Positions 22,836-39,513 of a stretch of 39,513 nucleotides of DNA are shown one piece after another. The stretch covers positions 1 through 39,513 of the forward strand of contig JAMPHJ010000014.1 in assembly GCA_023663465.1 (NCBI GenBank), read 5' to 3'. Each line of letters begins with the position of its first letter. Positions within the stretch are counted from its first letter, which is position 1. The notes below the pieces were generated by a model. It was not told the origin of the DNA. It did no database searches and saw only the letters and a program-made list of their open reading frames with translations. Source of the DNA: Muribaculaceae bacterium. GTDB lineage: Bacteria; Bacillota; Clostridia; Lachnospirales; Lachnospiraceae. The position numbers and the translations under genes were made by a program.

Positions 22836-23570
22836 TTATTGCACCATAACTGCAATAAATGTTAGGTTGTCACTATCCGGCTTCATCCGATTCATTGCCC
22901 GGATAAGCATCTGCTCGCCCCACCTAGAAGCAGTGTCCGATTTCAGGCAATCAACAAGTATTTCCTCATCATAAAGATATTCCCAGAAACCATCAGAGCA
23001 CAAAAGAAACGCATCCCCCGGCATGACAGAATGTTCTGCATCAAGGCAGCCGCATTCCGGATTGCAATGTCCCTCATCCCCCATGGCGCGCAGGAGCCTG
23101 GAACGATCCTCATCAAAATTCATGCCGTCGCGACTGATTTCGCCAGACTTATACTTTTTATAAGTGACGGAATGGTCCGCTGTCAGACGCATAATACGGC
23201 CTTCCGACAGATAGTACAGCCTTGAATCTCCCACATGCGCCCATGATGCCATGCCCGCATCAAGGCATAATGTTACCACCGTACTTTTCATCTTCCCTTT
23301 CTTTTCCTTCTGAAGTTCGATAAGCGTATCATTTGCTCGTAAAATATTTTTTTCAAGCCAATCGACCCGTGATATTTTCTCTTTGTCAGTTTCCCATGAG
23401 GCTGTCAGGTTCTCTACAATGCAGTGTGACGCTATTTCACCGCCAAAGTGTCCGCCTAGTCCGTCGGCAAGAATGAAAAATGCCTGTGCATCATCTATAC
23501 GGTAATCTGCAAAGTCTTCGTTGTATTCTCTGCCACCGTTATTTGTAAACATATAAACATCCAGTTTCAA
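22836..23570 (-). CDS. PP2C-family Ser/Thr phosphatase
   Basis: A compact 244-residue PP2C/PPM phosphatase. Metal-binding motifs are present: NEDF near the start, ADGLGGHFGGEIASH, WAHVGDSRLYYL, CSDGFWEYL and the final DNLTFIAVMVQ. It has no membrane segment and should act in the cytoplasm, removing phosphate from threonine or serine, most likely on the kinase and FHA partners encoded around it. It is one of two phosphatases in the locus and lies 21 bp after the exported protease gene. Confidence 0.92.
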   Translation of the reverse strand: MKLDVYMFTNNGGREYNEDFADYRIDDAQAFFILADGLGGHFGGEIASHCIVENLTASWETDKEKISRVDWLEKNILRANDTLIELQKEKKGKMKSTVVTLCLDAGMASWAHVGDSRLYYLSEGRIMRLTADHSVTYKKYKSGEISRDGMNFDEDRSRLLRAMGDEGHCNPECGCLDAEHSVMPGDAFLLCSDGFWEYLYDEEILVDCLKSDTASRWGEQMLIRAMNRMKPDSDNLTFIAVMVQ

Positions 23571-23591: not shown

Positions 23592-24887
23592 CTATCCAAG
23601 TTCCGTGCGAATCTCATTAGCACGGTCGCCCAGATAAAAGCTGTCGCCTGACCTAAGGTAATAAGCTGCCCCAGGATTTAATTTCTGTCCGTTTCTCAAA
23701 AATGTACCATATGTTGATTTCATATCCATCAAAACAAATTCCCCTCTTGATGCATCCCATGATATCTGGCAGTGAAGCTTACTAACGCCAGGCGTACCAT
23801 CACGATATACAAGCTGACATGAAGATGGGTCACGCCCAATCTGCACCTGACGGCCTTCAAGCTGTACTTTCATGCCTCCATGCTGCTGCGCCATGGAGCA
23901 AATCACGGGTTTACCCTGTGGCTGCATGGGCTGCTGTGCCATGGATGCGGGTTGTGACTGTGGATGCCGCTTCTTGCCTTTCATTACCAAAAACACGACA
24001 ACGCCTGCTGCTATGATTACACCTGCCACAATTGCTACAATTATAATAGTAGAATTATTCTTGCCTGGAACCGGGTCTGGATCCGGGTCATCCGGAATCG
24101 GAACCGGATCCGGGTCATCCGGAACGACCTCCTTTGAACTATCGTCCACGTAATCATATGCTACGTTATTGCGGTCAAGGAGCGGAATCACCTCTTCCAT
24201 ACTTACCGCATAATTCATGTTCTCACTTTCAGCAGCTCCCATCGTATTTATACCTATTACATTACCGTTGGCGTTTACCAAAGGTCCGCCGGAATTTCCG
24301 CCAAATATAGGCGTATCCATCTGAATCAGCCTTCTTCCGGTTCCACTTTCGGTAATTATCCTGTTAATTGTTCCACTGGTCACAGAAGCATCCTCTATGC
24401 TTAAGTTACTGGTAGAATTTATTACCTCATCTGAAAGTCCCGGAAATCCAACTGCATATACCTGACTGCCTACATTATATGTACCTTCTACTGTTAATGG
24501 TTTTCTTTTTGAAGTTGCTTTTGCCAGACGTAAAAGCGCCACATCCATCTTGTCGTTATATTCAACAACATATGCCTCTTCAACATCATTTTGGTCAAAT
24601 GCCACATATAACCTGCTCTGGCTGCCTGACTGCCCGCCTCCTACATACACGAAATCCTCTATAACGTGGTAGTTGGTCACGATATATTGTGGATCCTCTC
24701 CTTTCTGTCCCACGAAAAATCCCGTTCCTCTTGCGGCTCCGATATATTCGCCATCAAGAACAATATCTTCTTCCACATACACGATACTTTCCAGCGTTTC
24801 CTGATTAAACTCCGATGCACACACAGGCAAGACCCATAAAACTGTAAGCATCAATGCCAGCAACATACTTCCTATTCTTCTTTTCAT
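23592..24887 (-). CDS. Exported trypsin-like serine protease with a membrane helix and cytoplasmic FHA domain
   Basis: 431 residues. A signal peptide (about 1-24) precedes a chymotrypsin-fold (S1/HtrA-like) domain with the triad His74 (TNYHVIEDF), Asp115 (KMDVALLRL) and Ser199 (GGNSGGPLV). A Pro/Asp repeat stalk (DPDPVPIPDDPDPDPVPG) leads to a membrane helix at about 278-300. The C-terminal FHA domain (about 335-425) keeps IGRDPSSC, SKLHCQI and STYGTFL. The enzyme should thus sit outside the membrane with a phospho-threonine reader inside. The FHA closely resembles that of the protein at 28931-29380. This architecture suggests that intracellular kinase activity gates or recruits an extracellular protease; that is inference. 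Confidence 0.9.
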   Translation of the reverse strand: MKRRIGSMLLALMLTVLWVLPVCASEFNQETLESIVYVEEDIVLDGEYIGAARGTGFFVGQKGEDPQYIVTNYHVIEDFVYVGGGQSGSQSRLYVAFDQNDVEEAYVVEYNDKMDVALLRLAKATSKRKPLTVEGTYNVGSQVYAVGFPGLSDEVINSTSNLSIEDASVTSGTINRIITESGTGRRLIQMDTPIFGGNSGGPLVNANGNVIGINTMGAAESENMNYAVSMEEVIPLLDRNNVAYDYVDDSSKEVVPDDPDPVPIPDDPDPDPVPGKNNSTIIIVAIVAGVIIAAGVVVFLVMKGKKRHPQSQPASMAQQPMQPQGKPVICSMAQQHGGMKVQLEGRQVQIGRDPSSCQLVYRDGTPGVSKLHCQISWDASRGEFVLMDMKSTYGTFLRNGQKLNPGAAYYLRSGDSFYLGDRANEIRTELG

Positions 24888-24920
24888 TCTAAATTCCTCT
24901 TTTCTTTTTTATTTTTGAAC

Positions 24921-25736
24921 TTAATATCTGCAGGCAATCACAAGTGCAGTATAATTGTCCTGATGCATACGCTTTTTTGTCTTTATTTCCTGTTCCATCC
25001 TCCTGCATGCCTGCTCCGGAGTCGGTTCCCCTAAACACTCCAGCAATTCCGGTTCAGTCAATACGCCTCCCACTCCATCAGAACATATCAGTAAAACATC
25101 TCCCTCCTGAATACGCCACGGACGACTAAGCGTATCTACTTCTTCCAGTTCGTCGCATCCCAAAAACTGACTCAGACGCAGACCGTCCTCATCCTCATCC
25201 GCCTGAGTCGTATCGAGGCTTCCCTCTCGCAGCAGTTCAAGATATTCATCTTGGCGGCAGGTCTGTTCCCTGTTCAGACGATAGATGCCTCCGTCGCGTT
25301 TCAGATAGAGAAAGCTGTCGCCCACACTTGCAAAATACAGTCTTTCCTGAAAAAATATGCATGCCACAATCGTTGTCCCTCCATTGCCTCTGAACGTATT
25401 AAAAAGGGCGCTGTTTGCACGAAATATGCTTTCCTTCAACTGTATTCCCATATTCTTTTTCCTGTCCATCTTCCTGAAATCGTCCGTAACCGCTTTAATT
25501 GCCGCCTCGCTCACAAGCTTTCCGTCCTGCATGCCGCCCATGCCGTCAGCCAACAGCGCAAGAAGTCCATTGTTTTTTATCTCCATGACGTCCATCGCAT
25601 TTACAAATGCAAAAGAATCCTCCTGACTCTGGCGCGTTCCTATTCCTTGCAGATTAGCCATCTGATAACTTAAAAAGCGCTGCAGAGGTTGCTGATTCTG
25701 TACCGGTTCCGGTTGTTTCCGTTTAAAAAACTGCAT
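24921..25736 (-). CDS. PP2C-family Ser/Thr phosphatase
   Basis: 271 residues. Metal motifs ADGMGGMQDGKLVSEAA, SVGDSFLYL, CSDGVGGVL and DNYTALVIACRY identify a PP2C phosphatase. An N-terminal extension of about 25 residues (MQFFKRKQPEPVQNQQPLQ) is basic and Gln-rich. The gene overlaps the end of the FHA gene before it by 14 bp, so the two are translationally coupled. The pairing of FHA protein and phosphatase parallels the Fha/PppA partnership known from other threonine-phosphorylation systems. Confidence 0.92.
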   Translation of the reverse strand: MQFFKRKQPEPVQNQQPLQRFLSYQMANLQGIGTRQSQEDSFAFVNAMDVMEIKNNGLLALLADGMGGMQDGKLVSEAAIKAVTDDFRKMDRKKNMGIQLKESIFRANSALFNTFRGNGGTTIVACIFFQERLYFASVGDSFLYLKRDGGIYRLNREQTCRQDEYLELLREGSLDTTQADEDEDGLRLSQFLGCDELEEVDTLSRPWRIQEGDVLLICSDGVGGVLTEPELLECLGEPTPEQACRRMEQEIKTKKRMHQDNYTALVIACRY

Positions 25737-26406
25737 TGTCTCCTCCTTCTCTGTTCAATCCGCCGCTCCATGAAAATTTTTCTCCACATAGAGGAATAAA
25801 CAATAGCTTAGTGGCGCCCATTTCAATTACATCGTATGCATTCAGTTTTATCTGCACATAGACTGGTTCATCATTGACATAGGTATTGTTTGCACCATTT
25901 CCCGGAATAATATGAAACCTGTTATTCTTGGGGTCATACCCTATCTTTACATGAACATCCCTGGTGATGCCAGAATCGCCACGGATGCATACATCCATTT
26001 TCTCGCTCCTGCCAATCGAGTTGATTCTTCCGTAAAGACGATAATCCTTTCCCTTGCTGCTCCCTTCTATACATACAAGCCATCCCACCACCGGCTCAAC
26101 ACCCTTATAACTCTTTAACATACCTGTGGTCTTGTTTTCTGCATCAACGCGCATCCCATATCCCCTTGGCGGCAGGGTCTTGCTTTCATCATCAATAACA
26201 CTGCGCTGCATGCTATTATACATACTACTTCCGCCCGGCATCGTCACACCGCCCTGTCCGACAGGCACTCCTCCTGGCATCGTCACGCCTCCTTCTCCGA
26301 CAGGCATCCCGCCAAAATCAACCGTCTGAAAATTGCCGCAATAAGGACATGACGAATACATGTCTGCATCATAAATATGCCCTTTTTCACACTCTACTCT
26401 TGTCAT
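25723..26406 (-). CDS. Cytoplasmic FHA-domain protein with an N-terminal zinc-binding knuckle
   Basis: 227 residues. The N-terminus has CEKGHIYDADMYSSCPYCG, a small zinc knuckle. A Gly/Met-rich linker follows with a repeated GVTMPGG unit (about 37-60). The FHA domain (about 105-215) has IGRSEKMDVCI, SGITRDVHVKIGYD and NNTYVND. No membrane segment is present. FHA domains bind phospho-threonine, so this is likely an adaptor for the kinase encoded 34 bp upstream. A GGGGGAG ribosome binding site precedes the ATG. Confidence 0.88.
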   Translation of the reverse strand: MTRVECEKGHIYDADMYSSCPYCGNFQTVDFGGMPVGEGGVTMPGGVPVGQGGVTMPGGSSMYNSMQRSVIDDESKTLPPRGYGMRVDAENKTTGMLKSYKGVEPVVGWLVCIEGSSKGKDYRLYGRINSIGRSEKMDVCIRGDSGITRDVHVKIGYDPKNNRFHIIPGNGANNTYVNDEPVYVQIKLNAYDVIEMGATKLLFIPLCGEKFSWSGGLNREGGDNAVF

Positions 26407-26440
26407 AGGTTCTATCTCCCCCTTTTTAGTATAACAATAT

Positions 26441-28828
26441 CTATTTCAGCCCCGCTTCTTCCGCGGTAATACCTGCACCGGTAAACATACCGTCCATGTC
26501 TTCTACTTTACTTGTGTCAAAACTGCTTAAATCCAGACTTGCTAAACTTTCACAGTCAGCAAACATTCTATCTATATCTGTTACATTACTTGTATCAAAA
26601 CTACTCAAATCCAGACTTGACAGATTGCTACAGCTAGCAAACATACTACGCATATTTGTTACATTACTTGTATTAAAACTACTTAAATCCAAACTTCTCA
26701 AACTTTCACATTTAGCAAACATACACAACATACTTGTTACATTACTTGTATCAAAATTACTCAAATCCAGACTTGTTAATTTGCTACAATTTTCAAACAT
26801 CCATCTCATATTTGTTACATTACTTGTATCAAAAACGCTCACATCCAGGCTTGGCAGATTGCTACAGTTAGCAAACATACTAGTCATACCTGTTACATTA
26901 CTTGTATCAAAACTACTCACATCCAGACTTGGCAGATTGCTACAGCTAGCAAACATATCACTCATATCTGTTACATTACTTGTATCAAAACTACTCACAT
27001 CCAGACTTGGCAGATTGCTACAGCCACAAAACATTCCACTCATATCTGTTACATTACTTGTATCAAAACTACTCACATCCAGGCTTGGCAGATTGTCACA
27101 CCAACCAAACATAAGCGCCATACTGCTTACATTGCTTGTATCAAAACTTCTTACGTCCAGACTTGGCAGATTAATACAGAATGAAAACATCATACTCATA
27201 TCCGTTACTTTTTCTGTATGAAAACAGTTATTAAAATTAATTTCTGTCACATACATATAACCGGCAAACAATGCCTTGCCCGAACTTGCACAAACTCCGC
27301 CTTCTGCTGCTATATATAAATCATACTTATCGCCTGACGGTTTTGCCCATGCCATTACCAGACCATTCTTATCCTTTGACACATCCCATGCATCATCAGG
27401 CATATCTGCTAATGTATCAAGAAATGTGATGGTTGCGATTGAAGAACGCTTCAATTTTTCATTTCCCAATACATATACCATATCATCATCTGGATTCCAT
27501 TCCTCTCCAACAAAATCCTCCATAAGCACATTCTTGACATATGCAGGTTCTTCCTCCGACTGCGGTTTGGTTTCAGTAGAAGCCAATGGGGTATCGTTTG
27601 CAATGGTATCTTCTGCCAACTGCAGCTTAGTCTCCGTGTTATCCACTAAGGTATTACCTGCAGTACTGTTTACCACCGTCTTCTCGTCAGCATACTGATT
27701 AACTGTAACATCAGTACTCTTTTTTGAACTTCCTTTTCCTGCAACAACTCCCACTATGACACACAATGCGGCTGCACCAACAGTAATTGCTATTTTCTTC
27801 CATGTATCTGATGCTTTACCTCCGTTTATGACATCTGCGTCATGTTTTTCGCCTGTCTTATTTCCTGTAACACTTTCCGTTATGCTTCCCATCTTATTTT
27901 CTGTCGGGTTCTGTACCGGTACAACGTTCTCACCCATAACCGCCTGTTTGAATGCTGCCATCGTCTGGTATCTGTCCTCGGCGCGTACTTCAAGCGCTTT
28001 TATAATGGCTTCGTCCGCCCTGTCAGGCAGATTCACGCCGCGGTTAGAGAGCGGTACGAGGTCGTCCTCCTCCATGCGGTCAAGGGACTCGGGCGGTATG
28101 TAACCGCACAATGCCGAATAAAAACATGCCGCCGCTGAATACACGTCGGTAAATGCACCCTGCTTTCCGCGCCGGGTATACTGCTCCTTGGGCGCGTAGC
28201 CGGGTTTTAATATGACGTCCAGGCTTTTACTGCGGTCGCCCAGGCTGTAGCGCGCCGCTCCGAAGTCGATCAGCTTTACCATGCCGTCGTTTGAGATAAA
28301 GATATTGTCGGGAGTAACGTCACGGTGGACGAGACCTTTCTTATGTACGGCATCAAGCGCGTCCATAACCGGCGACATGATCTTCCATACCTCTTCCCAT
28401 GACAGCTTTCCGCCATTCTGTTTGATGTAGGTCTTGAAATCGATGCCCTCTATGTAGTCCATCACGAAATACGCCGTGCCGTTTTCCTCAAAGTATTCCT
28501 GAACGCCAACGATATGCGGATTCCCCTGAAACTGTGCGAGCACCTTCGCTTCTTCCAAAAAACTTTCCATACCGAAACGGAAATTATCACGGCGTTCATC
28601 CGTGTAGGTTCTTACCTCAATAGAAGCGGTGCTTCGCATCGCCATTGTTTCAGGGAAAAATTCCTTGACCGCTGCTTTTAAGCCTGTTTTGTAGCTCTCG
28701 GCAAGATAAGTGATCCCGAAGCCGCCCTGTCCAAGTACGTTTTTGATCACATATTTTCCTGCCAGAATCGTGTCTTTTGGCAGCGCCGCCGGATATTTTT
28801 CCCATGCGCTATTAACTGTATCATTCAT
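26441..28828 (-). CDS. Transmembrane Ser/Thr protein kinase with a BspA/DUF285-repeat ectodomain
   Basis: About 795 residues. The kinase domain (about 20-300) shows the Gly loop LGQGGFG at 32-38, Lys55, HRD at 168-170 (HRDVTPDN in place of HRDLKPEN) and DFG at 188-190. A membrane helix lies at about 344-364. The outer part ends in ten 26-residue repeats (consensus DTSNVTDMxxMFxxCSNLPS) of the BspA/DUF285 type, used for surface contact. I chose ATG 28828 because GGAGG lies 6 bases before it; an in-frame start 30 codons upstream lacks support. The receptor layout suggests that outside contact is turned into threonine phosphorylation of the FHA proteins nearby. Confidence 0.92.
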   Translation of the reverse strand: MNDTVNSAWEKYPAALPKDTILAGKYVIKNVLGQGGFGITYLAESYKTGLKAAVKEFFPETMAMRSTASIEVRTYTDERRDNFRFGMESFLEEAKVLAQFQGNPHIVGVQEYFEENGTAYFVMDYIEGIDFKTYIKQNGGKLSWEEVWKIMSPVMDALDAVHKKGLVHRDVTPDNIFISNDGMVKLIDFGAARYSLGDRSKSLDVILKPGYAPKEQYTRRGKQGAFTDVYSAAACFYSALCGYIPPESLDRMEEDDLVPLSNRGVNLPDRADEAIIKALEVRAEDRYQTMAAFKQAVMGENVVPVQNPTENKMGSITESVTGNKTGEKHDADVINGGKASDTWKKIAITVGAAALCVIVGVVAGKGSSKKSTDVTVNQYADEKTVVNSTAGNTLVDNTETKLQLAEDTIANDTPLASTETKPQSEEEPAYVKNVLMEDFVGEEWNPDDDMVYVLGNEKLKRSSIATITFLDTLADMPDDAWDVSKDKNGLVMAWAKPSGDKYDLYIAAEGGVCASSGKALFAGYMYVTEINFNNCFHTEKVTDMSMMFSFCINLPSLDVRSFDTSNVSSMALMFGWCDNLPSLDVSSFDTSNVTDMSGMFCGCSNLPSLDVSSFDTSNVTDMSDMFASCSNLPSLDVSSFDTSNVTGMTSMFANCSNLPSLDVSVFDTSNVTNMRWMFENCSKLTSLDLSNFDTSNVTSMLCMFAKCESLRSLDLSSFNTSNVTNMRSMFASCSNLSSLDLSSFDTSNVTDIDRMFADCESLASLDLSSFDTSKVEDMDGMFTGAGITAEEAGLK
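26470..27200 (-). repeat. Ten 78-bp repeats in the kinase ectodomain
   Basis: The part of the kinase gene encoding the ectodomain consists of about ten 78-bp units, most of them over 80% alike. Recurring DNA blocks include GTTACATTACTTGTATCAAA and CTCACATCCAGACTTGGCAG. Unit number could change by recombination or slippage without shifting the frame. Confidence 0.85.
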
Positions 28829-28930
28829 AATAATCCTCCATGCTCCTAAATCCAGTTTCCCCATATAACAATATTTATTTCCGTCCTGCCCATTCTGCAG
28901 TAATTCCTTCTCCCTCAAACCCTCCTGCTA

Positions 28931-29380
28931 TTACAGATCCGATCTAAATCCGGTCTTTACTTCATTGTTAATGTCCCCAAGGTAAAAACTCTCTCCTGGT
29001 TTCAGGTAATAAAGCTTCCCCGGCGTCAGACGCTTACCACTTTTTAGAAAAGTGCCATAAGTAGAATTCATATCCGAGAGGATAAATTTCCTCCTGCCCT
29101 CATCCCATATCAGCGTACAGTGAAATCTGCTGACCCCGGGAGCGCTGTCATGGTACAAAATCTGACACCGTGCCAAATCCCTCCCGAAGCATATCTGCCC
29201 ATCTTCAAATAAAACCCACCTTCCGCCCTGCTGCCCCGACATAGGGCAGACTGCCGGAATCCCTGGCTTTATACCGGCAGAGAGAACTGCCTCTGATTTC
29301 ACGCCGCACTCAGGACAAAATTTCCCATCCTCAGGAAACTCAAAACCACATGTTGAACATTTTCTCATTCTTACACCCAT
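28931..29380 (-). CDS. Zinc-ribbon plus FHA-domain protein
   Basis: 149 residues. A zinc ribbon at the N-terminus (CSTCGFEFPEDGKFCPECG) is followed by an FHA domain at about 55-140 with FGRDLARCQI, SRFHCTL and STYGTFL. The FHA is a close paralogue of the one on the exported protease. It has no membrane segment and is probably a soluble phospho-threonine reader. The start at 29380 has a modest AAGGAA upstream; the Met at 29368, just before RKCSTCG, is an alternative. It lies 9 bp after the unknown gene before it and 102 bp before the kinase start. Confidence 0.85.
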   Translation of the reverse strand: MGVRMRKCSTCGFEFPEDGKFCPECGVKSEAVLSAGIKPGIPAVCPMSGQQGGRWVLFEDGQICFGRDLARCQILYHDSAPGVSRFHCTLIWDEGRRKFILSDMNSTYGTFLKSGKRLTPGKLYYLKPGESFYLGDINNEVKTGFRSDL

Positions 29381-29389
29381 ACATCATGC

Positions 29390-30178
29390 TTATTCCTTCA
29401 ATAACATTTTCAAATATCCTGCAACCGCCCCCAGCAGTTCTTCTTCTAACGCAGGGGATAGTTCAAATTTTCGTTCCCTTGCATCCTTCACAATTACTTC
29501 ATCCTGAATCTCGGAAAACGTCTCTTGTACAAAAACAAAATCCTCCAATTTAATGCAGAGTCCTCTTTTCTCCAAAACCTGCTCCGCCATATTCAATAGC
29601 CTGTCCTTATTTTCCCTCTGCTCTATAACAGAAATAGCTTTTCTCTCAGCCAGTTCGGGAGCTATTCCAACGGCAAACTCCGCCACGGAACCTGCTGTGT
29701 CCTCTACCACTTTTCGGAGCACATCGCTTCCGCCGAATATCGTTTTCTTTATCGTTTTACCTGCAAGATCGCCAATCTTCTGCTTAACAGTATCATTTTT
29801 CATAATACCGCTATAATTTACATTTATATTCCTGCCAATCAATGACAGCCGCCCCACTGAATCCTGCGCCATATAAATATCGCCGATATAAATATTCCTC
29901 CCCAGCTCATCCTTCTGCAAAAGCCCATTCAAAGCGGAGCGGATTTCCTGACAATATAGGTTTACAAGCCCACACAGCAGTTCCCCTTTGCTTTGCCCAT
30001 CCATCAGATTTAATATGCCAAGCGCGGCTGTCATGGAAACATCGCCCATTTTAAGCAAAAAACGGAGCGCAAGATTTGGTGCTTCCATCTGCCGGCACTT
30101 TTCCATTCCCATAGGAAACAGGTTTGCAAAACTTTTCTCGTAATGAATTTCTTTGATTGTAATATTCGCATAAATCAT
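29390..30178 (-). CDS. Protein of unknown function, coupled to the P-loop-less GTPase-like gene
   Basis: 262 residues. I do not recognise the family. No signal peptide or clear membrane helix is visible. Residues about 130-190 are rich in Gly/Ala and hydrophobics (GDLAGKTIKKTIFGG, AEFAVGIAPELAE) and might be amphipathic. The start overlaps the previous gene by four bases (ATGA), so the two products are probably made in equal amounts and may form a complex. The C-terminal part is helical and charged. Confidence 0.7.
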   Translation of the reverse strand: MIYANITIKEIHYEKSFANLFPMGMEKCRQMEAPNLALRFLLKMGDVSMTAALGILNLMDGQSKGELLCGLVNLYCQEIRSALNGLLQKDELGRNIYIGDIYMAQDSVGRLSLIGRNINVNYSGIMKNDTVKQKIGDLAGKTIKKTIFGGSDVLRKVVEDTAGSVAEFAVGIAPELAERKAISVIEQRENKDRLLNMAEQVLEKRGLCIKLEDFVFVQETFSEIQDEVIVKDARERKFELSPALEEELLGAVAGYLKMLLKE

Positions 30179-30981
30179 TTTTTGCGCTCTCCATTTTCAA
30201 ATCGTTCTTTCAATATATAAGCCAAAGCATCTTCAAATTTCTGAATTCCACTTTCTACAAGCAATTCATCGTTGCCATTTATGCGGGCATCCAACGCGTT
30301 GGAAGATGAAATGAGAAAAAACGGATATTCCTCAATTTTTGACTTTTTTTCTTCATATTTTTCAGATTCTGAACCGTAAGTTTCCGACAACTTATCCAAA
30401 GCTGTCATCAAAATTCTCTTTTTGATAGCTTCCGCCATATATTTCCGCTCGTCCGGACTAATAACATCAATATCATTAATCACAAACATCAAGCGTTCTG
30501 AATCGTTCCCCGTCAGTTCTTTGTATACAAGCTCACAATCCGCTTCACTGATAGGTTCTTCAGGATTGATTACCATGATGGTCTCATCCAGCCTGGATAG
30601 CATTATTTCGTTGAATCTAACCATATTTATATCACCATTACAAGATGGTATGTTAACAATATCAATCCCTTTCTGACAAAATTGGCAGGGATAATATATA
30701 ATAATCTCATCTATAGTCTCCGCGCTCTGTGAAATCACATAAGAGTTAATATACTTAACAATTTCATCTACTGAAATATTAAACATCGAACCATTATTCA
30801 GAATGACCTGTGCACGCGGCTGTAAATCATATGTAATCCTTAGTAAAATCGCTAAAGCAGGTGGTATGATCAACTTGCCAATAATTGCATTAATCAGATT
30901 ATTCCTTTTACGATTTAATCCCCCTATGATGACTACAGACATTTTAGGAATAGTTTGTATAACAAATTCTGGATTATCCAT
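30175..30981 (-). CDS. Dynamin-like GTPase paralogue lacking the P-loop (pseudo-GTPase)
   Basis: 268 residues that line up with the GTPase domain of the 685-residue protein at 34751-36808. Matches include YDLQPRAQVILNNGSMF, YYPCQFCQKGIDIV and SGIQKFEDALAYIL. The nucleotide-binding positions are lost: P-loop GEFKRGKS has become GGLNRKRN (20-27), and switch-2 DTPG has become NIPS (110-113). The long helical stalk and membrane part are absent. The frame is intact and the ribosome binding site (AAGGGGAAG) good, so it is a retained protein and not an obvious pseudogene. It may bind a true GTPase and regulate it. Confidence 0.85.
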   Translation of the reverse strand: MDNPEFVIQTIPKMSVVIIGGLNRKRNNLINAIIGKLIIPPALAILLRITYDLQPRAQVILNNGSMFNISVDEIVKYINSYVISQSAETIDEIIIYYPCQFCQKGIDIVNIPSCNGDINMVRFNEIMLSRLDETIMVINPEEPISEADCELVYKELTGNDSERLMFVINDIDVISPDERKYMAEAIKKRILMTALDKLSETYGSESEKYEEKKSKIEEYPFFLISSSNALDARINGNDELLVESGIQKFEDALAYILKERFENGERKK

Positions 30982-31014
30982 TATATCTTCCCCTTTTAAT
31001 TACCTGCCATTGCC

Positions 31015-31293
31015 TTATTTGTTGAATATTTTCTTACAGATGAAAATAATAATAAAAATAAATATCGCAACCAATACCACGCTTGGCAATGGAACCAATC
31101 CAAGCGCTATGACGCCTCCTATAACCAGGCCTATTGATAACATCTTTTTCCCCTTAGGCGGAGGATCCGGAATGATCGGTCCTGTTGCTTCAATCGTGTC
31201 AGAAACTACGCCGGATATCAGAGGGTTTCCACATTTCGGACAGAACATCTTGCCGTCATCATACTCTATGTTGCAATTTGTACATCTTTTCAT
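31015..31293 (-). CDS. Small zinc-ribbon membrane protein
   Basis: 92 residues. The N-terminal zinc ribbon CTNCNIEYDDGKMFCPKCG is followed by a short linker with PDPPPKGKK. Two hydrophobic stretches at about 50-85 (LSIGLVIGGVIALGLV and VVLVAIFIFIIIFIC) make it a membrane protein with its ribbon in the cytoplasm. Its function is unknown. It sits between the other zinc-ribbon gene and the pseudo-GTPase gene. Confidence 0.75.
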   Translation of the reverse strand: MKRCTNCNIEYDDGKMFCPKCGNPLISGVVSDTIEATGPIIPDPPPKGKKMLSIGLVIGGVIALGLVPLPSVVLVAIFIFIIIFICKKIFNK

Positions 31294-31320
31294 ATTTTTC
31301 CCCAGCCTCTTCTTTCTACT

Positions 31321-31968
31321 TTAGATTTTGGTTCCGCACTCTGCGCAGAATAACATCCCAGGCTTTACTTTGGCGCCGCAATAAGGACAGTCCTTTTCCG
31401 CAGGCTGCTCTGCGAACAGTTTCGACTGTTCCGATTCAGGCGCAGGCTTCCCGCAGTAAGCGCAAAAGTTTCCTTCCCGCATCTGGGTAACCCCGCAATA
31501 AGCACATTTAAAAAATCGGGGTACAACACTACCGCCTGCCGTAACAGGCAATGGCACATCCTTCGCGGTCACTTCTGAAACTTTCTGGGAAACAGGTTGT
31601 AGCGGTTGCTCCGGCTGCTTTGTCATAGACTGCTGCGGAGTCGTTTCCTGAAAAGATCTTGTCGCGGCTGACCAGCCTTTCGCCTTCGCTTTACTCTCAA
31701 AAATAAGCTCCTGCCCTGTCGTCTGATTGAGCAGATACCCTGCCCATTCCGCTGAACAGAATTCTCCATTTTTGCACTTTTTACACACAACAGCATACCT
31801 TGATTTGAGAGTCAGCGTAGGAATCCAGAATACATCAATTTTCTGGTTCGCTTCATCCAGTGTAAATTCCGTAAGTTTTTTGCAATTAGGACAATGATAC
31901 ATACCCAGACTTTTTATGCTCTTTAAATGGTCTGTCACTCCGCAGCCATTAATACGATAGCCTCCCAT
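31321..31968 (-). CDS. Multi-zinc-ribbon protein
   Basis: 215 residues with several Cys pairs. The N-terminal domain has CPNCKKLTEF and CKKCKNGEFC, of the type found in zinc-ribbon proteins linked to membrane or protein quality factors. The C-terminus carries two ribbons in a row (CAYCGVTQMREGNFCAYCG and CPYCGAKVKPGMLFCAECG). A Pro/Gln-rich linker lies between. No membrane segment is seen. It probably works as a scaffold with its GTPase neighbours. AGGAGG lies 9 bases before the ATG. Confidence 0.78.
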   Translation of the reverse strand: MGGYRINGCGVTDHLKSIKSLGMYHCPNCKKLTEFTLDEANQKIDVFWIPTLTLKSRYAVVCKKCKNGEFCSAEWAGYLLNQTTGQELIFESKAKAKGWSAATRSFQETTPQQSMTKQPEQPLQPVSQKVSEVTAKDVPLPVTAGGSVVPRFFKCAYCGVTQMREGNFCAYCGKPAPESEQSKLFAEQPAEKDCPYCGAKVKPGMLFCAECGTKI

Positions 31969-31984
31969 AACTCCCTGCCTCCTC

Positions 31985-33730
31985 TTAAATCAACTGTGTA
32001 ATATCCTCTAATGTTTTCCGAAGTTGTTCTACTGCCTGTCGGATCTCCGCTTTTTTCTCCTCACCCTGACGGGCAACGGCAGCCGACTGTTCCATTTGTT
32101 GTTCCAGTGCCTGTAGCTTGCCATTATGGAACTCCATCAGATTCTTTTTCGCCTGCTCGCTCATTTTCTGATAGGTATCAGCCACTGTTTTTTGTACGGA
32201 AACAAAGAGCGCATCATACTGCCTCTGGATTTCCTGAACAATCTGGGGCTTGCGCTCTTTCAGCTCCTTTTTCCTCATTGCGCCGCCAATACCATCAGCC
32301 ACCAGCGACAAAAAGCCGCTGCTGACCATAGATACCGCAAATCCTACGCTGTCGCCTTTTGTCCAAGTCTTGTTATCCAGTACAAAACGAAAGTTATACT
32401 GTGCATTAGTGTGATGCTCGGACATAGTGCATGTCAGTTCATCAGAAATCGAGTTAAGCTCATCAAACATCCTGACCATATGATGATCGACACAACATGC
32501 CAAGGCTTCCTGCATGGTATCAATGCAGAAGAACGGATAATACTTGGTCAAATCCGACTCAGAATACATTTCCAAAGAAGCGGTTTCTCTTTTCATCCGC
32601 CCTAAAAGTTCATTAATCCACCCAATAGCCTCCCCCTGCATAGAACGAATCATATCATCAATTTTATGGTTGTTTTCCTCCTGTGTCTGTGCCTGTTGCT
32701 CTTTCTGCATCTGAACATTATCCATTGCATGCTGCACATCCTGACTGTCCATTTGAAGTCCCCTTTCCAGCGCAGACAAATCATCATTGATATCTGCTGC
32801 CATGATACGGAGCATTCGCTGCATACGATCCGGCAGGATAGTTTCTTTTTTATTCTGTATCAACTCAGTGAATGTGCTGCGAAACTCCTGAAAGCTTGTC
32901 CCCATTATATCGGCCAGTTGTCGGTTCGGACGCTCCTCCTCCAGTTGGCGGCACCGTTCATCCAATGCACTGAGCATCCAGATTGACTGCCCCGGCAACA
33001 GACCGCTGACTCTATCCTCCAGCATTTCTTTCATTCGTGTGTAATCCACTTCATTTTGAAGCATATCCGTAAAATTGGACACTAAGAATAAGCTGGTGTA
33101 ACGCTGGGGAATAATAGAAGTTTTCAAATATAATTGTTCGCTGCGCGACAGTGGATATGTGACAGAAAAAACATAGATTACAGCATCCGCCTGCTGTAGC
33201 GCTTTACTGACAGCGCCTGTAAAATCCTTTTCAGAATCTTCCAATCCGGGAGTATCAATTACCGTAATATTTTTCAGAATATCAATATTGCGATGGAGTT
33301 CCAATTGCTCAACCGGCTCATCCAATTGTCCAATTACTGCTTCCAAAGCATCACGGCAGAGTTCCTCGTCTGTTAGGGAAAGCCGCTTTCCGCCTGAAAG
33401 AACGATTTCATTACTGTGGGCGCCGTAAGAAATACGGTTCAGCGTAACAGTCTCAGTAGTCACATTTATCGGAACTACATCTTCCCCTAATAAAGCGTTG
33501 ATTAAACTGGATTTTCCACGTTTAAAATCACCACAGATGACCAATGTAAAAGGATCGTTCTTCCTTTGCCGGATATTCTGCTCCCATTCCGTAATCTTTC
33601 CTACCAGCAGTTCTCCCAAAAGTTCCCGATACTTGCTGTCATATTGGTAGGGTTTAAGCTGATCCAGCGAAACCTCAATGTGCTTCATCAATTCCACTGC
33701 GTCATAATAAATTCTATCATTCAATCCCAT
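31985..33730 (-). CDS. Dynamin-like GTPase C
   Basis: 581 residues. The GTPase domain has the P-loop GDFKRGKS at 67-74 and DTPGLED as switch 2; the base-recognition motif is degenerate (LVSNFTD). After residue 300 comes a long helical part rich in Gln/Glu. A hydrophobic patch near 455-480 (VGFAVSMVSSGFLSLVADGIGG) could dip into the membrane. The C-terminal 100 residues are strongly coiled-coil. Dynamin-like proteins bend, fuse or cut membranes with GTP. It lies 15 bp after the M48 protease gene. TAAAGGAG precedes the start. Confidence 0.88.
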   Translation of the reverse strand: MGLNDRIYYDAVELMKHIEVSLDQLKPYQYDSKYRELLGELLVGKITEWEQNIRQRKNDPFTLVICGDFKRGKSSLINALLGEDVVPINVTTETVTLNRISYGAHSNEIVLSGGKRLSLTDEELCRDALEAVIGQLDEPVEQLELHRNIDILKNITVIDTPGLEDSEKDFTGAVSKALQQADAVIYVFSVTYPLSRSEQLYLKTSIIPQRYTSLFLVSNFTDMLQNEVDYTRMKEMLEDRVSGLLPGQSIWMLSALDERCRQLEEERPNRQLADIMGTSFQEFRSTFTELIQNKKETILPDRMQRMLRIMAADINDDLSALERGLQMDSQDVQHAMDNVQMQKEQQAQTQEENNHKIDDMIRSMQGEAIGWINELLGRMKRETASLEMYSESDLTKYYPFFCIDTMQEALACCVDHHMVRMFDELNSISDELTCTMSEHHTNAQYNFRFVLDNKTWTKGDSVGFAVSMVSSGFLSLVADGIGGAMRKKELKERKPQIVQEIQRQYDALFVSVQKTVADTYQKMSEQAKKNLMEFHNGKLQALEQQMEQSAAVARQGEEKKAEIRQAVEQLRKTLEDITQLI

Positions 33731-33745
33731 AGACTCTTCTCTCCT

Positions 33746-34729
33746 TTAACAATTCTTGCTCAGATCAATATATCGTTTACAGCGTTCATCGGTTTCCGAC
33801 TTAGTCCGCATAAGCTGCCCTGGGGTCTTCTGGTCAGGGCGCCATTCATAATATTTCTCACATTCACAAAATTCCTGTAGCGCTGCGATACGGCGCGCAA
33901 TTGCGGGGTGGCTGTCTAAAATCTCACTGTACTTGGCAACGCTGGATACCGTGTGTTCAAGCTGTGCCCGAATGGCATCAAAATCAATCTCGTGTTCATC
34001 ACCAATGACGCCTCCATATATAAGCTTTGCCAACGCCGAATAGCAGTCCTCCCGGCAGTCAGCACAGAGCATTCCGGCACGGTCTGCAGTGACCTCAGAC
34101 GCTCTATTCCACGCAGACAACATGGCCATGCTTCCCACTGTCATCAGACTGGCAAGTAACTGTATAATACCGGTAGTGACGCCGACGGCAACGTTTAGTC
34201 CTGTATTTAATACTAACTGGCTGAGATAGGAATATGACGAATGATAATTCTGAATATGCCCGCATTCATGCCCAATTATATACTTCAACTCGCCGAGGTT
34301 CATACGCTCTATCAGTCCACTATTAATTACGACCATTGGCTCAACGTCATCCATAGCATAAGTAAAAGCATTCATAACTGGATTATTATCAATGAAAACA
34401 TTTGGTATGCCTATTCCCAGAGTCTTGGCACAATCGCAGGAAATCTGGTATATCTCCGGGAATTGTGAAGGTCCTGCCGCCATTGAGGTACGGGTGTATT
34501 CATGAATCTTGCGACTGAGATTTGTTGATGTAATCATCTTCGCCGTATCGTAAAAGCGCGGAATGGAATCCAGCTTTTTGCGGCACTCATAGTCCATTGC
34601 AAAGGCATAATTAGGAATACCGTTGCCGTCCATTCGGTTACTGTCCATCATTTTCCGTTTGGTCAGATAATTGCCGAAGCTACAGTCTATGCCGCTTAAA
34701 GGGGTATTGACAGATTGAAATTGTTCCAT
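33746..34729 (-). CDS. M48 family metalloprotease
   Basis: 327 residues. The zinc site HECGHIQNYH is at 154-163, and the third ligand is probably the Glu or Asp in ASEVTADRAG near 212-220. Hydrophobic stretches after the zinc site (LNTGLNVAVGVTTGIIQLLASLMTVGSMAML) suggest membrane contact. M48 enzymes such as HtpX cut damaged membrane proteins on the cytoplasmic side. There is no signal peptide. Placed between two dynamin-like genes with gaps of about 20 bp, it could mature or remove them. AGGAGAAAATAGAA precedes the ATG. Confidence 0.9.
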   Translation of the reverse strand: MEQFQSVNTPLSGIDCSFGNYLTKRKMMDSNRMDGNGIPNYAFAMDYECRKKLDSIPRFYDTAKMITSTNLSRKIHEYTRTSMAAGPSQFPEIYQISCDCAKTLGIGIPNVFIDNNPVMNAFTYAMDDVEPMVVINSGLIERMNLGELKYIIGHECGHIQNYHSSYSYLSQLVLNTGLNVAVGVTTGIIQLLASLMTVGSMAMLSAWNRASEVTADRAGMLCADCREDCYSALAKLIYGGVIGDEHEIDFDAIRAQLEHTVSSVAKYSEILDSHPAIARRIAALQEFCECEKYYEWRPDQKTPGQLMRTKSETDERCKRYIDLSKNC

Positions 34730-34750
34730 TTCTATTTTCTCCTCTCTTTA

Positions 34751-36808
34751 TCAGCCAGCCAGGCTGCCGCTCTTGATTGTTTCCATGACAGGTGACAGTT
34801 GCCTTATAATCTCATCCACGGATGCAATAATTTTCTCACACTCTTTCGACGCCTGCTCACGCTGCATGGAATTTTTCGTCAAATCCTGCTTAATAAGATC
34901 CAGCGTCTGTTCCGTGTCATGCAGCGCTTTTTCCAGTTCCTCGTTCATAACTGTGGTAAGAGAACCAAAAGCGGCCTCAATACGCTGTTCCAACGTCCTT
35001 TCCAATTCTCCCGAAGCCCTCATTTGTGCTACGGATTCCTTAATCTGCTTTCTGGTATTGTCTATCAATGTCTTATACTCCTGCTCCCCCTTGGATGGGA
35101 ACAGACTCTGAGCTGCAAATTTACCAACTACGCCGCTGGCCGCACTGGCAATCACACACAATGGCAGACCAACGATACCTGCCGGACCCAAAACCACTGC
35201 CGTTGCAAACGTCGTTGCAACGCCCGCGGCAAGCCCTACTGCCGCGCCTTTCACACCTGCTTCCTGATATCCTTTCACTAACCCCGTCAACCCCCATGGA
35301 CCGCCTGCAAAGTCAGTCAGAATATCCAATGCCAATCCCGCAATACCAATAGCATTTTTAACCTTTGGTTCAGAAGCATCGCTGGAAGAAGATAAAGACA
35401 GCTGAACTTCTGAATTCAATTTACCAATCATATCGGAGGCAAAAGCAGCGCTCTGGGCGGCCTGTTCTCCGACTGCATCCATAAGCTGTTTTTGCATACG
35501 CTCACTGAAATTTGACATTTTAGTCTTAATTGTTTCATTGATAACTTCCTGCATTTTCTGCGCAGCCGCCTGCTGACCCGCCTTTTTTGTCAACGATTTT
35601 TTGTCTATAGAAGTCTGCTCCACGATATTGTTCAAATCTCCTCCCAGTTCATCATAGAATGCCTGCATCTGGGTCAGCAGATTCGACTTTGTCTGCTGGG
35701 CAGCGGCATTAATACGGTTGGTTTCTTCCTTTTTACTATTGCGGAATTCAGCGATTTTCTCCATAGCCTGTTTTTGTTTCTGTTCAAATTCTTCCGCACT
35801 GAGCTGTAAGCTGTTTTTCCGCGTTTCAGCGGCATTCAACACATCTGTGGCAGCCCGCGAAATTACAGCAAGGGGAGCTGCCAGCTCCAATGTGCCCCTC
35901 TCTATTGTCAGCATATACGTCAGGGCATCCTCAAATTTGCGTATTCCGCTTTCCTCAAGCAATTCGTCATCCCCCTCTATCCGGGCATCCAACGCATTCA
36001 ACGCAGATATGGGAAAAATATTAATATTTCCGATTTTTGACTTCGCATCTGTATATTCCTTGGATTCCTCCCCGTATATTTCCGCCATCTTATTCAAAAC
36101 CGTTGTCTGAATCTTACGTTTAATGCCATCCACTGCACGTTCACGATCTTTTGGACGAATGGTATCAATCCTGTTTACCAGAAACAGCAGACGTCCCAAA
36201 TCGCTTCCCATAAGTTTATTACGTACAAATTCAGCTTCACTTTTACTGAAAGGCGCATCCGGCACAATTACCATGATAACCGCATCCAGTTTGGGAACAA
36301 TTTCCTCGCTGATCTTATCCATGCGCTCATCATCGTTTAGACCCGGTGTATCAACGATATCCACTCCATTTTGGCAAAACTGGCAAGGATAGTAGACAAT
36401 TGCCTCATCCACCATTTCCGCCCTTCTGGCATTATCATCATTGGTTTTGGTTACATAATCCGCGATTTTATCCACAGGGACTTCTATTACCGAGCCGTCA
36501 TTTTTGATAACCTGCGCATGAGGCTTCAGGTCATAGGTAACCCTGTTCATAGTCGCCGTAGCGGGAAGGACATCCGCCGGCATAATTTCCCTTCCCAGCA
36601 GGGCGTTGATTACCGTACTTTTACCCCTCTTAAACTCACCCATGATTCCTACGGAAAATTTATGACTGGTCAGCTTATGCCGACTGTCTTCAATAGCTTT
36701 TTGACTTTCTTTAAGTTCTAATTGTCCGCACAATTTGCTCATCTGTGTCAGCGCAGTATTGACCTCCGCCACCTTGCCATGATAGCTTGTGTAATCCTTA
36801 TTTTCCAT
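34751..36808 (-). CDS. Dynamin-like GTPase B with a membrane-inserting hydrophobic region
   Basis: 685 residues. The GTPase domain has GEFKRGKS at 57-64, DTPGLND and LVNRIDT in place of NKxD. Residues about 330-460 are helical and Gln/Glu-rich. A long Gly/Ala hydrophobic block (about 490-575, including GLAAGVATTFATAVVLGPAG) is the likely membrane paddle, as in bacterial dynamin-like proteins, and a coiled-coil tail follows. The P-loop-less protein at 30175-30981 derives from this GTPase type. GGGAGGAAG precedes the ATG. A weak internal promoter (TTAAGC, 17 bp, TAAAAT) may lie in the 86-bp gap before it. Confidence 0.9.
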   Translation of the reverse strand: MENKDYTSYHGKVAEVNTALTQMSKLCGQLELKESQKAIEDSRHKLTSHKFSVGIMGEFKRGKSTVINALLGREIMPADVLPATATMNRVTYDLKPHAQVIKNDGSVIEVPVDKIADYVTKTNDDNARRAEMVDEAIVYYPCQFCQNGVDIVDTPGLNDDERMDKISEEIVPKLDAVIMVIVPDAPFSKSEAEFVRNKLMGSDLGRLLFLVNRIDTIRPKDRERAVDGIKRKIQTTVLNKMAEIYGEESKEYTDAKSKIGNINIFPISALNALDARIEGDDELLEESGIRKFEDALTYMLTIERGTLELAAPLAVISRAATDVLNAAETRKNSLQLSAEEFEQKQKQAMEKIAEFRNSKKEETNRINAAAQQTKSNLLTQMQAFYDELGGDLNNIVEQTSIDKKSLTKKAGQQAAAQKMQEVINETIKTKMSNFSERMQKQLMDAVGEQAAQSAAFASDMIGKLNSEVQLSLSSSSDASEPKVKNAIGIAGLALDILTDFAGGPWGLTGLVKGYQEAGVKGAAVGLAAGVATTFATAVVLGPAGIVGLPLCVIASAASGVVGKFAAQSLFPSKGEQEYKTLIDNTRKQIKESVAQMRASGELERTLEQRIEAAFGSLTTVMNEELEKALHDTEQTLDLIKQDLTKNSMQREQASKECEKIIASVDEIIRQLSPVMETIKSGSLAG

Positions 36809-36894
36809 TCAACTTCCTCCCTTATGGTATCTTTTTTATTTTATTCATAAGTTAGAAAATGCTTAATTTTCATACTTTAGAATTTCATTTTTCA

Positions 36895-38652
36895 TTAGCC
36901 TGCCTCGGCAATAAAATCTTCCCTCAGCTCCCGAATATCTATTTCCAGCTGCTGCAGCCTTTCCAAAAGAAACTCTTCTTCTTTATACTTCTGTAGCTGC
37001 TCTATATATTTTGACGTTTTATCGTATACATTCCTGACAAGATTCTGAATCTGATTATCCAGACGTTGCTTAGCCTGCCCAAATATCTGTACAATCTGCT
37101 GCCAACACCGGTTTTTATAATCCGCCAGGGATGATCTAATTACCGGATCAACATATGCCATAATATTCCAATCTGTTCCAATTGCCGCCATATCCGGTAT
37201 TGGAGAACGTAACCAATAAAAATCTTGAATATCTTCTGTTTCCTTTAACGACAAATAATCCGGCAGCGTATCAAGTTCAGGCTCCATAACCTGATACATT
37301 TCCGGAAATGGCTGAACTATTACCTCTAATTCCTTGCGCAGGCCATGACTGCAGGGATCCAATACATTTTTCTGATATTGATACAGATAAGCGCTTTCCG
37401 CTTCATGGCACTGCATATTTATCTCCTTGAATACTTCCTTTATGACTGGGATGAAAACCCTTTTTAATTCCTCATGGGACAATGCTTTCATCTCTCCAAG
37501 AGCATGCGTAAATTTCTTGCGCGCATACGAAAACAATTCTCCTTCATCCGGTATAAAGCGTGCTGTTTCCGCCTCAGACAAGGAAAATAGCTTCGCAGTT
37601 GTTTCATAGCTTACCTGCGCAAAAGCCATTTTCATTTCATTTAGTTGTGCTTCTAAATATCGCTGCTGCAAAAGCCATTCACGGTATTTACATATAAGCT
37701 TATCCAGTTTCCGTTCCGTATTTAAAACAATACTGCTGTTCTGGCTGCTCATAATAATCTGCGGAAGCTTGTCATTCAGATGCCGAAAGCCGCTCTTATT
37801 AAATAGCTCCATATTGTTACAGGAAAGCGCCTCCAAAGCCTCTATTGCAGATACTGCAAAGACGCAGGGATTATCAAAAATAACATGATATTTCCGCATA
37901 ATCTCACTGTCCGGCGCATGAGTCATGGACAGACGTTCTTTTATACTCCCCCTGACACGCTCAACCATATAATCAATAACCTTCTGCCGCTCACATTCCT
38001 TTATATTATCAATCTTGGTGACAACAATGATAATCTGGCATATCTGCGGACTTTCCAGCAATTGTGTTGTAAATGCGCACTCCGTTATGCTAAACGGTAT
38101 GTTTGCGTTTACAGTCACAATTGCCAAGTCAATACTTTCTAAACGTGATATAGTTACCCGGTTCATATCAGCCTCATCATTCATACCGGGGGTGTCAATC
38201 AAATCAACGCCATTTCTGCAAAACAATGACGGATACTCCAAAACTGCTTCATAAATCTGCGATGCGTTCTCTGTTGCATCAGTGGTCAGCTTCGTAATGT
38301 ATTCCGCCAGTTCTTCAATAAGGACGGATTTCTTTTGTCCGTTTTTCATGATAATATAAGCGCTGGGATTATCACCATATGTAATGCGGTTAATTGCCGC
38401 TGTAGTGGGCAGATAATCAGTCGGAAGAAGTTCTTTGCCCAGCAGCGCATTCACAAATGTCGTTTTTCCTCTGTTGAACTCGCCAACAACCGCCACGCGA
38501 AAATTTTTTGTCTCAAAATCCTGACGCAGTTTTATTACTTCTGACTGTAGGCTCTTCAGTTCTTCTACACTGCCTCTTTCCTGCAACAATTTGTCAAATC
38601 GACTAATATGCTCATAAACCCGAAACTCATAGCTTTTATAGTTTACTGACAT
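36895..38652 (-). CDS. Dynamin-like GTPase A, first gene of the locus
   Basis: 585 residues. The GTPase domain shows GEFNRGKT at 57-64, DTPGMND and VVTKIDN, a full set of nucleotide motifs. The rest is mainly helical, with no long hydrophobic block, and ends in a charged coiled coil. Pairs of bacterial dynamin-like proteins often work as hetero-oligomers, so A may partner B and C. GGAGGAGTTT precedes the ATG. Its leader reaches directly into the inverted-repeat segment at 38670-38820, which makes it the gene most directly under that switch. Confidence 0.9.
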   Translation of the reverse strand: MSVNYKSYEFRVYEHISRFDKLLQERGSVEELKSLQSEVIKLRQDFETKNFRVAVVGEFNRGKTTFVNALLGKELLPTDYLPTTAAINRITYGDNPSAYIIMKNGQKKSVLIEELAEYITKLTTDATENASQIYEAVLEYPSLFCRNGVDLIDTPGMNDEADMNRVTISRLESIDLAIVTVNANIPFSITECAFTTQLLESPQICQIIIVVTKIDNIKECERQKVIDYMVERVRGSIKERLSMTHAPDSEIMRKYHVIFDNPCVFAVSAIEALEALSCNNMELFNKSGFRHLNDKLPQIIMSSQNSSIVLNTERKLDKLICKYREWLLQQRYLEAQLNEMKMAFAQVSYETTAKLFSLSEAETARFIPDEGELFSYARKKFTHALGEMKALSHEELKRVFIPVIKEVFKEINMQCHEAESAYLYQYQKNVLDPCSHGLRKELEVIVQPFPEMYQVMEPELDTLPDYLSLKETEDIQDFYWLRSPIPDMAAIGTDWNIMAYVDPVIRSSLADYKNRCWQQIVQIFGQAKQRLDNQIQNLVRNVYDKTSKYIEQLQKYKEEEFLLERLQQLEIDIRELREDFIAEAG

Positions 38653-38669
38653 AAACTCCTCCGAGCACT

Positions 38670-38689
38670 AAAAAGTGTACTTTTGCAAA
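38670..38689 (+). repeat. Left inverted repeat of the putative invertible segment
   Basis: AAAAAGTGTACTTTTGCAAA. Inside it AAAAGT and ACTTTT form 6-bp arms around a central GT (38677-38678). Its exact reverse complement is at 38801-38820. It lies 17 bp upstream of the GTPase A start codon. Confidence 0.85.
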
Positions 38690-38744
38690 CTGTCTGATTT
38701 TATTGGAAATATTTAAAATGTTTTGGAAATGTTTTGCTAATTTG

Positions 38745-38773
38745 TTGAAAAATCAATTTTTAAATGATAAAAT
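38745..38773 (+). promoter_or_regulatory. Promoter inside the inverted-repeat segment, pointing rightward
   Basis: TTGAAA (38745-38750), a 17-bp spacer and TAAAAT (38768-38773) form a good sigma-A promoter. In this orientation it reads toward the 3' end of the recombinase gene, antisense to it. The minus strand of the segment has only poorer matches. AT-rich DNA gives chance hits, so confidence is moderate. Confidence 0.55.
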
Positions 38774-38800
38774 GTAAAACAAGTATTTAAAAATGCTAAA

Positions 38801-38820
38801 TTTGCAAAAGTACACTTTTT
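38801..38820 (-). repeat. Right inverted repeat of the putative invertible segment
   Basis: TTTGCAAAAGTACACTTTTT is the exact reverse complement of 38670-38689. Its core dinucleotide is AC at 38812-38813. It ends 13 bp before the stop codon of the recombinase gene. Confidence 0.85.
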
Positions 38821-38833
38821 CAAATTTTCTTTT

Positions 38834-39490
<657 letters not shown>

Positions 39491-39513
39491 TTATTTCTAG
39501 CGTGAAAGGCTTG

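Follow-up and report, generated by a model that had tools for sequence, protein, structure and literature searches.

A probable invertible promoter switch, adjacent to a small serine recombinase gene, in front of a dynamin and kinase gene cluster

The stretch of DNA analyzed here, referred to as the window, is 39,513 nucleotides long and constitutes a whole contig (C55) of a genome that is 86% complete. Its features are collected in Table 1. Close to one end, with the contig ending 62 bases upstream of its start, lies a gene for a small serine recombinase, and a short segment bounded by inverted repeats separates it from a long series of genes on the same strand. A first-pass annotation, made from the letters alone, had placed the repeats between a serine recombinase gene and the first gene of a long locus, and domain searches confirmed both neighbors.

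Table 1. Predicted features of the window, ordered from the recombinase gene into the downstream locus
Feature	Position	Strand	Basis or remark
Small serine recombinase, 205 aa, likely invertase of the switch	38834..39451	-	Pfam Resolvase 7.3e-27, residues 6-150
Recombinase-proximal 26-bp crossover site (predicted)	38800..38825		Core AC 38812-38813 (+ strand), i.e., GT inverted; sequence reading
Segment between cores, predicted to invert	38679..38811		Site geometry; homologous segments flipped in other genomes
Promoter match TTGAAA-17-TAAAAT, extended -10 (TG)	38745..38773	+	Consensus scan; points away from locus (OFF)
Locus-proximal 26-bp crossover site (predicted)	38665..38690		Core GT 38677-38678 (+ strand); sequence reading
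Ribosome-binding-site-like GGAGGAG	38656..38662	-	Direct reading; before first locus gene, outside segment
Dynamin-like GTPase A, first locus gene	36895..38652	-	Pfam Dynamin_N 1.7e-26
Dynamin-like GTPase B, bacterial dynamin helical domain	34751..36808	-	Pfam; PADLOC LeoBC 1.2e-29
M48 metallopeptidase (HtpX-like)	33746..34729	-	Pfam 6.6e-26; HtpX models below cut-offs
Dynamin-like GTPase C	31985..33730	-	Pfam 5.2e-20
Zinc-ribbon protein	31321..31968	-	Pfam
Small zinc-ribbon protein	31015..31293	-	Pfam
Shortened dynamin-B paralogue	30175..30981	-	47.6% identity over 254 aa to L003 dynamin-B gene; 0 Pfam families
Protein with 0 Pfam families	29390..30178	-	Pfam
FHA-domain protein	28931..29380	-	Pfam 9.3e-13
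Ser/Thr kinase with DUF285/PARCEL repeats (surface-type)	26441..28918	-	Pfam, NCBIfam
FHA-domain protein	25723..26406	-	Pfam 2.3e-7
PP2C-type phosphatase	24921..25736	-	Pfam 6.8e-7
Trypsin-like protease with FHA domain	23592..24887	-	Pfam 3.1e-27 and 2e-14
PP2C-type phosphatase	22836..23570	-	Pfam 4.5e-12
VWA plus FHA protein, last of packed run	21245..22798	-	Pfam
Protein with 0 Pfam families, after 362-bp gap; membership uncertain	20127..20882	-	Pfam
PARG-like + ADP-ribosylglycohydrolase + Macro fusion; membership uncertain	17440..20112	-	Pfam

Positions are those of the window. Start codons in gene coordinates were assigned mechanically.

Fifteen co-directional genes, running from 38652 to 21245 (17.4 kb), follow one another with gaps of at most 86 bp. 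Beyond 21245 come 362 bp in which no same-strand gene was taken, then two more genes and a gap of ~750 bp. Scans of positions 17000–36950 returned 48 promoter-like sites (vs. 39.9, sd 6.4, in shuffles) and 17 terminator-like sites (vs. 14.8, sd 4.0); because these counts are near shuffle levels, consensus scans do not settle the extent of the operon. The controlled unit is likely the 17.4-kb run, and a unit of 21 kb reaching to 17440 is possible. The “21-kb locus” of the first-pass annotation thus stands as an upper bound, whereas tight packing ends at 21245, before the last two genes. By annotation, the product of the outermost gene (17440–20112) combines three ADP-ribose-related activities (microbial PARG, ADP-ribosylglycohydrolase, and Macro).

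The three full-length dynamins (A, B, and C) match the PADLOC LeoA/LeoBC models at 2.2e-14, 1.2e-29, and 2.1e-15, respectively, models that carry no curated cut-off. They resemble Leo dynamin-like systems to this extent, but in the window the dynamin genes number three and are joined by genes for a peptidase, FHA proteins, a kinase, and phosphatases. The Ser/Thr kinase matches 35 PADLOC families, as expected of a generic kinase, and the other six of the ten proteins scanned with PADLOC gave none, or a marginal match for one phosphatase. Neighborhoods of kinase, zinc ribbon, PP2C, and vWA genes are described in PMC7159879, in whose available text the word “dynamin” occurs 0 times. A role of the cluster in defence or membrane stress is a guess. 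Within dynamin B, ~150 bases (window 35276–35423 vs. 9230–9391 of L003) are strongly diverged between genomes that are otherwise ~98% identical here; more loosely, the divergence spans residues 370–600. Inversion was considered as the cause and rejected, as the sequence does not look inverted; on its sequence, the stretch resembles an allelic replacement.

The recombinase has the Resolvase catalytic domain expected of a small serine recombinase, with the predicted catalytic serine in the motif YMRVSS. Its best match among solved structures is 2r0q (4.4e-28, residues 2–155), listed as putative transposon Tn552 DNA-invertase bin3; close entries grouped with it carry the names Sin or plasmid resolvase, followed by the gamma-delta and Tn3 resolvases, with the DNA-invertase chains 4m6f and 3uj3 matching more weakly (about 1e-12). 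The protein scored below the cut-offs of the NCBIfam Mpi invertase model (NF009949; 39.5 vs. 272 bits), the XisF model (48.9 of 375), and the CcrA model (20.1 of 700). Family membership alone does not decide between an invertase and a resolvase; the arrangement of the sites does. A second recombinase in the same genome, on contig C59, ends 205 bases from the contig end, and its retrieved flank contains no 14-bp repeat.

The inverted arms at 38670–38689 and 38801–38820 are 20 nt each, 100% complementary, and 111 nt apart, exactly as first noted. They are the only inverted pair that a repeat search (seed 9, minimum 12) reported in 37500–39513, and 2 of 20000 sequences from first-order Markov resampling of 38451–38870 reached a repeat score of 20 or more. 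One repeat reads AAAAGT-GT-ACTTTT and the other its inverted copy, AAAAGT-AC-ACTTTT, so that the earlier reading of GT cores in inverted orientation also holds. Dyad symmetry around each core reaches 26 bp, which yields two predicted crossover sites with the half-sites ATTTGCAAAAGT, ATTTGAAAAAGT, GTTTGCAAAAGT, and the poorer GCACTAAAAAGT. The pattern RTTTGMAAAAGT fits three of the four 12-base half-sites, while the outermost half-site on the locus side, GCACTAAAAAGT, retains the inner part only. A dyad, a central 2-bp core, and cores in inverted orientation together make up the site type of small serine recombinases, and by sequence 38665–38690 and 38800–38825 are such a pair. Inverted repeats of this type around a short segment are what is expected of an inverton, and the stretch between the two genes has them.

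Apart from these two sites, no crossover site with two or fewer mismatches was found in the same genome. Three matches appeared at three mismatches; one is the recombinase-proximal site on the opposite strand, and the remaining two are no more than given by a reversed-pattern control (4). A second copy of the segment was also absent from this 86% complete genome. Since there is neither a second segment nor another site at two or fewer mismatches, the sequence suggests that the recombinase is dedicated to the adjacent switch (38665–38825).

The best promoter match of the segment on either strand is the TTGAAA-17-TGaTAAAAT sequence listed in Table 1, with a score that 2 of 5000 resampled segments matched or exceeded. 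In the opposite direction, the top-scoring match is unremarkable (1808 of 5000). Across 38600–39513 there are 6 promoter-like sites, compared to 3.3 (sd 1.9) in shuffles. By promoter direction, the assembled orientation is OFF, with the strong match facing away from the dynamin-like gene; 61 bp lie between its -10 box and the end of the recombinase stop codon, and it points antisense into that gene. Judged by the sequence match, inversion would turn this promoter toward the locus, with the -10 box ending ~65 bp before the start codon at 38652. The GGAGGAG before that start codon is outside the segment and is retained in both orientations. Another 10-of-12 match, lacking the TG, lies outside the segment at 38819–38847 and also faces away from the locus. 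The OFF state may be leaky rather than necessarily silent, because a 9-of-12 match inside the segment (38791–38764) already faces the locus in the present orientation.

A looser site-pair pattern matched only the window's own genome among 397 sampled across the family, a sample that excludes the near-twin genome G039 discussed below. Relatives were for this reason sought via the recombinase protein. When 77 genomes of the genus were searched, 38 of them yielded 64 matches in total (E up to 1e-40); 43 distinct recombinases were examined, 42 of them with enough 3′ sequence to be testable. A repeat was counted if its length minus twice the mismatches was at least 14, its gap was 60–300, and its start fell between -30 and +150 from the stop codon. 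By this rule, 27 of the 42 testable relatives have a repeat just 3′ of the recombinase gene, although they are not all independent (a single homologous group accounts for nine, and the window and its near-twin for two). The same rule was satisfied by 2 of 38 5′ flanks, 2 of 248 placements at seven alternative offsets downstream, and 4 of 2100 flanks made by resampling. The other 15 testable relatives have no 3′ repeat by this rule. Viral contigs contained 5 matches to a 17-base pattern; in the viral DNA examined, no recombinase relative accompanied any of them at 1e-5.

In the 27 passing elements, the repeat starts 11 to 60 bp past the recombinase stop codon, and the half-site end AAAAGT is common to related elements. 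One of them, L075 in genome G030, has 25 bases (ATTTGAAAAAGTGTACTTTTGCAAA) in common with the recombinase-proximal site of the window. Disregarding the near-twin, 18 of 26 elements have GT/AC cores, 7 have AT/AT cores (L083, L084, L089, L091, L092, L103, and L108), and one was mis-centered by the script. The non-symmetric 2-bp core proposed in the first-pass annotation therefore describes the window sites but fails as a general rule; because an AT core is palindromic, core polarity cannot select inversion over deletion in these seven. Scored by consensus promoter match alone, with a best promoter that in many relatives is not exceptional against resampling, 20 of the 27 segments are OFF (the window and its near-twin included), 4 are ON, and 3 are unclear. 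Across nine homologous segments, 22 of 29 columns in the promoter block are invariant, compared with 54 of 150 in the remainder, so the block is the better conserved part. At L100 (G058:C139) there are two tandem recombinase genes with site-like sequences on both sides of the second, which may thus lie inside its own invertible segment.

Pairwise comparison of 30 segments (the 27 plus three with a repeat below the rule) turned up homologues that face opposite ways. The segments of L074 (G009) and L075 (G030) run in opposite directions: 150 of 153 columns are identical after flipping one of them (local score 289 vs. 20), while the flanks are unflipped, with the recombinase end and the first gene oriented alike in the two. 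Seven further homologues also lie opposite to L074, and L103 (G112) is flipped relative to L092 (G018; score 98 vs. 15). These two cases are comparative evidence that the cassette family inverts, although the flipped pairs could be single old inversions. The window segment and that of G039, the only near-identical genome found, have the same orientation (score 207 same vs. 20 flipped), so both genomes that hold this segment show one orientation. The comparison of related assemblies proposed in the first-pass annotation accordingly found both orientations among homologues and an unflipped near-twin. Its reading of the repeats as an inverton has gained from the internal promoter match, the repeats 3′ of related recombinases, the common site motif, and the two flipped cases; for the window's own segment, seen in one orientation in two of two genomes, we infer flipping from these.

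We consider it very probable that 38665–38825 is an invertible promoter switch that is run by the adjacent serine recombinase and controls the packed dynamin/kinase gene run. The recombinase would bind the two 26-bp dyad sites, cut at their 2-bp GT cores, and flip the intervening segment. As sequenced, the strongest promoter would direct transcription away from the locus and, in antisense, into the recombinase gene from its 3′ end (OFF); in the inverted orientation, it would drive dynamin-like gene A and the packed run to ~21245, perhaps beyond (ON). We infer four elements of this scheme from sequence: the action of the recombinase on these sites, flipping in living cells, promoter activity, and the extent of the controlled genes.

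It is improbable, but the best surviving alternative, that the repeats are a dead or locked switch that once inverted and is now fixed OFF in the species. The single orientation in both genomes would agree with this, as would a relative, G047, in which the dynamin module stands behind a fixed promoter-like sequence. G047 retains dynamin A, dynamin B, the M48 peptidase, dynamin C, and a zinc-ribbon gene (59, 78, 81, 81, and 46% identity, respectively), with no recombinase match in the genome at 1e-40 and no repeat with 10-bp arms in the 700 bases upstream of dynamin A. Upstream of 22440 on contig C13 it has TAGACA-17-TAATCT with an extended -10, and a weak, site-like remnant matches 17 of 26 bases of the locus-proximal site, as well as do 52 of 5000 resampled sequences. 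The sequence of G047 is compatible with loss of the switch there. In the window and its near-twin, however, the arms are free of mismatches and the same in both, and the recombinase reading frame is uninterrupted (99% identical), and one orientation in two assemblies is expected if OFF is common, as the 20 OFF segments among 27 relatives suggest.

G047 is also informative about the cluster itself. In the G047 stretch C13:2000–21999, nothing matches the window's FHA, kinase, or phosphatase genes at 1e-6, and the window gene at 20127–20882 matches weakly (25%). As the FHA, kinase, and phosphatase genes are unmatched in the stretch compared, the dynamin/M48 part is the core that is conserved, and the FHA/kinase part may form a module of its own.

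Dyads near a gene can also serve regulators, and some resolvases repress their own genes; the repeats might then be sites for a dimeric repressor or for an autoregulating recombinase, with no inversion. We regard this as very unlikely, since the repeats lie 3′ of the recombinase gene with a promoter match between them, and since homologues of the segment are found in either orientation. Least credible of all is that the 151-bp stretch, which is like a miniature transposable element in its size and terminal repeats, is a chance repeat or a small non-autonomous transposable element with terminal inverted repeats, given that it is single-copy in its 86% complete genome rather than present in several copies, that 27 of 42 recombinases have a repeat in the same 3′ position, and that chance gives such arms in about 2 of 20000 sequences.

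An invertible promoter run by its neighboring recombinase is a switch type that is already known; its dynamin/kinase cargo is unusual. Invertible promoters of gut bacteria are reportedly the subject of Jiang et al. (2019), and the window shares with gut invertons the inverted repeats around a promoter, the nearby recombinase gene, and an orientation that would set target expression. Hin, of the Salmonella flagellar switch, has 26-bp dyad sites with a 2-bp core, with a promoter and the recombinase gene on the segment, and inversion by Hin or Gin requires a Fis-bound enhancer. The Hin switch and the one proposed here both have a serine recombinase, but the window recombinase gene lies outside the segment. 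Mpi of Bacteroides fragilis is a small serine recombinase that acts on invertible promoters at many sites, whereas the window recombinase has no other close site in its own genome and falls short of the Mpi cut-off. RecV is a tyrosine recombinase that acts at several loci; its switches also occur in a clostridial gut bacterium, and the window instead has a local serine recombinase. For Clostridioides difficile, the source text available lists the flagellar switch, pdcB, pdcC, and cmrRST as invertible regulatory segments.

The available text of PMC11868660 has Hin as a serine recombinase acting at the switch site. Invertible promoters were profiled in PMC11892184, whose accessible text gives a median of 3 per genome in Firmicutes_A (Clostridia-like Firmicutes). 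There, the inverton group with the most significant invertase link (group 139, with 32 of 33 from Clostridia) is associated with recombinases of the tyrosine type, and the word “serine” occurs 0 times in the main text as available. Compared with that group, as the source text available describes it, the window switch and its relatives adjoin a small serine recombinase, with dynamin/FHA/kinase cargo in the window. A search of open-licence papers found none that deals with an inverton in Blautia or with phase-variable dynamin loci.

Several other kinds of cargo lie behind the same type of recombinase. A second, distinct dynamin case is found in G024, where the recombinase and repeat precede an M48 peptidase gene and two dynamin-like genes, and where the promoter score gives the segment no clear orientation. 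At L092:10089–11558 (-) and L111:9271–10575 (-), a Cas12f/TnpB-like gene follows the recombinase and repeat (PADLOC Cas12f 2.9e-20 and 6.1e-11), the repeat of L111 being below the strict rule; L103, flipped relative to L092, may precede the same kind of gene, its contig ending after the first codons. L089:9885–11952 (-) encodes an EcoRI-type adenine methyltransferase and a type II restriction enzyme (PADLOC 1.4e-121 and 5.9e-135) behind an invertible promoter called OFF by promoter score. Flagellin genes are 3′ of recombinase relatives at L110:8238–10418 (-), with a weak repeat below the strict rule, and at L104, with no repeat by the rule, and flagellar phase variation is possible at both. 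The remaining cargo includes a family 2 glycosyltransferase, an MBOAT acyltransferase, a radical SAM/SPASM protein, and an RCC1-repeat protein.

A broader reading, which we offer tentatively and hold to be rather less than an even bet, is that a portable co-directional cassette (recombinase, invertible promoter, operon) has been placed before many loci of the genus, both conflict-type (dynamin/M48, Cas12f/TnpB-like, EcoRI-type pair) and surface genes. With the segment placed immediately 3′ of the recombinase gene, an OFF promoter faces that gene's 3′ end. Transcription antisense to the gene could then dampen the recombinase and hold the switch in the OFF state, leaving costly defence-like systems ON in only a minority of cells. 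A phase-variable Cas12-like system, if true, would be striking. The common cassette offers a simple rule for finding phase-variable loci from assemblies alone. If the reading of the window is true, a gut genus applies dedicated serine recombinase switches beyond surface structures, to a large defence-like dynamin/kinase/FHA cluster, and would provide a testable case for bet-hedged expression of defence-like systems.
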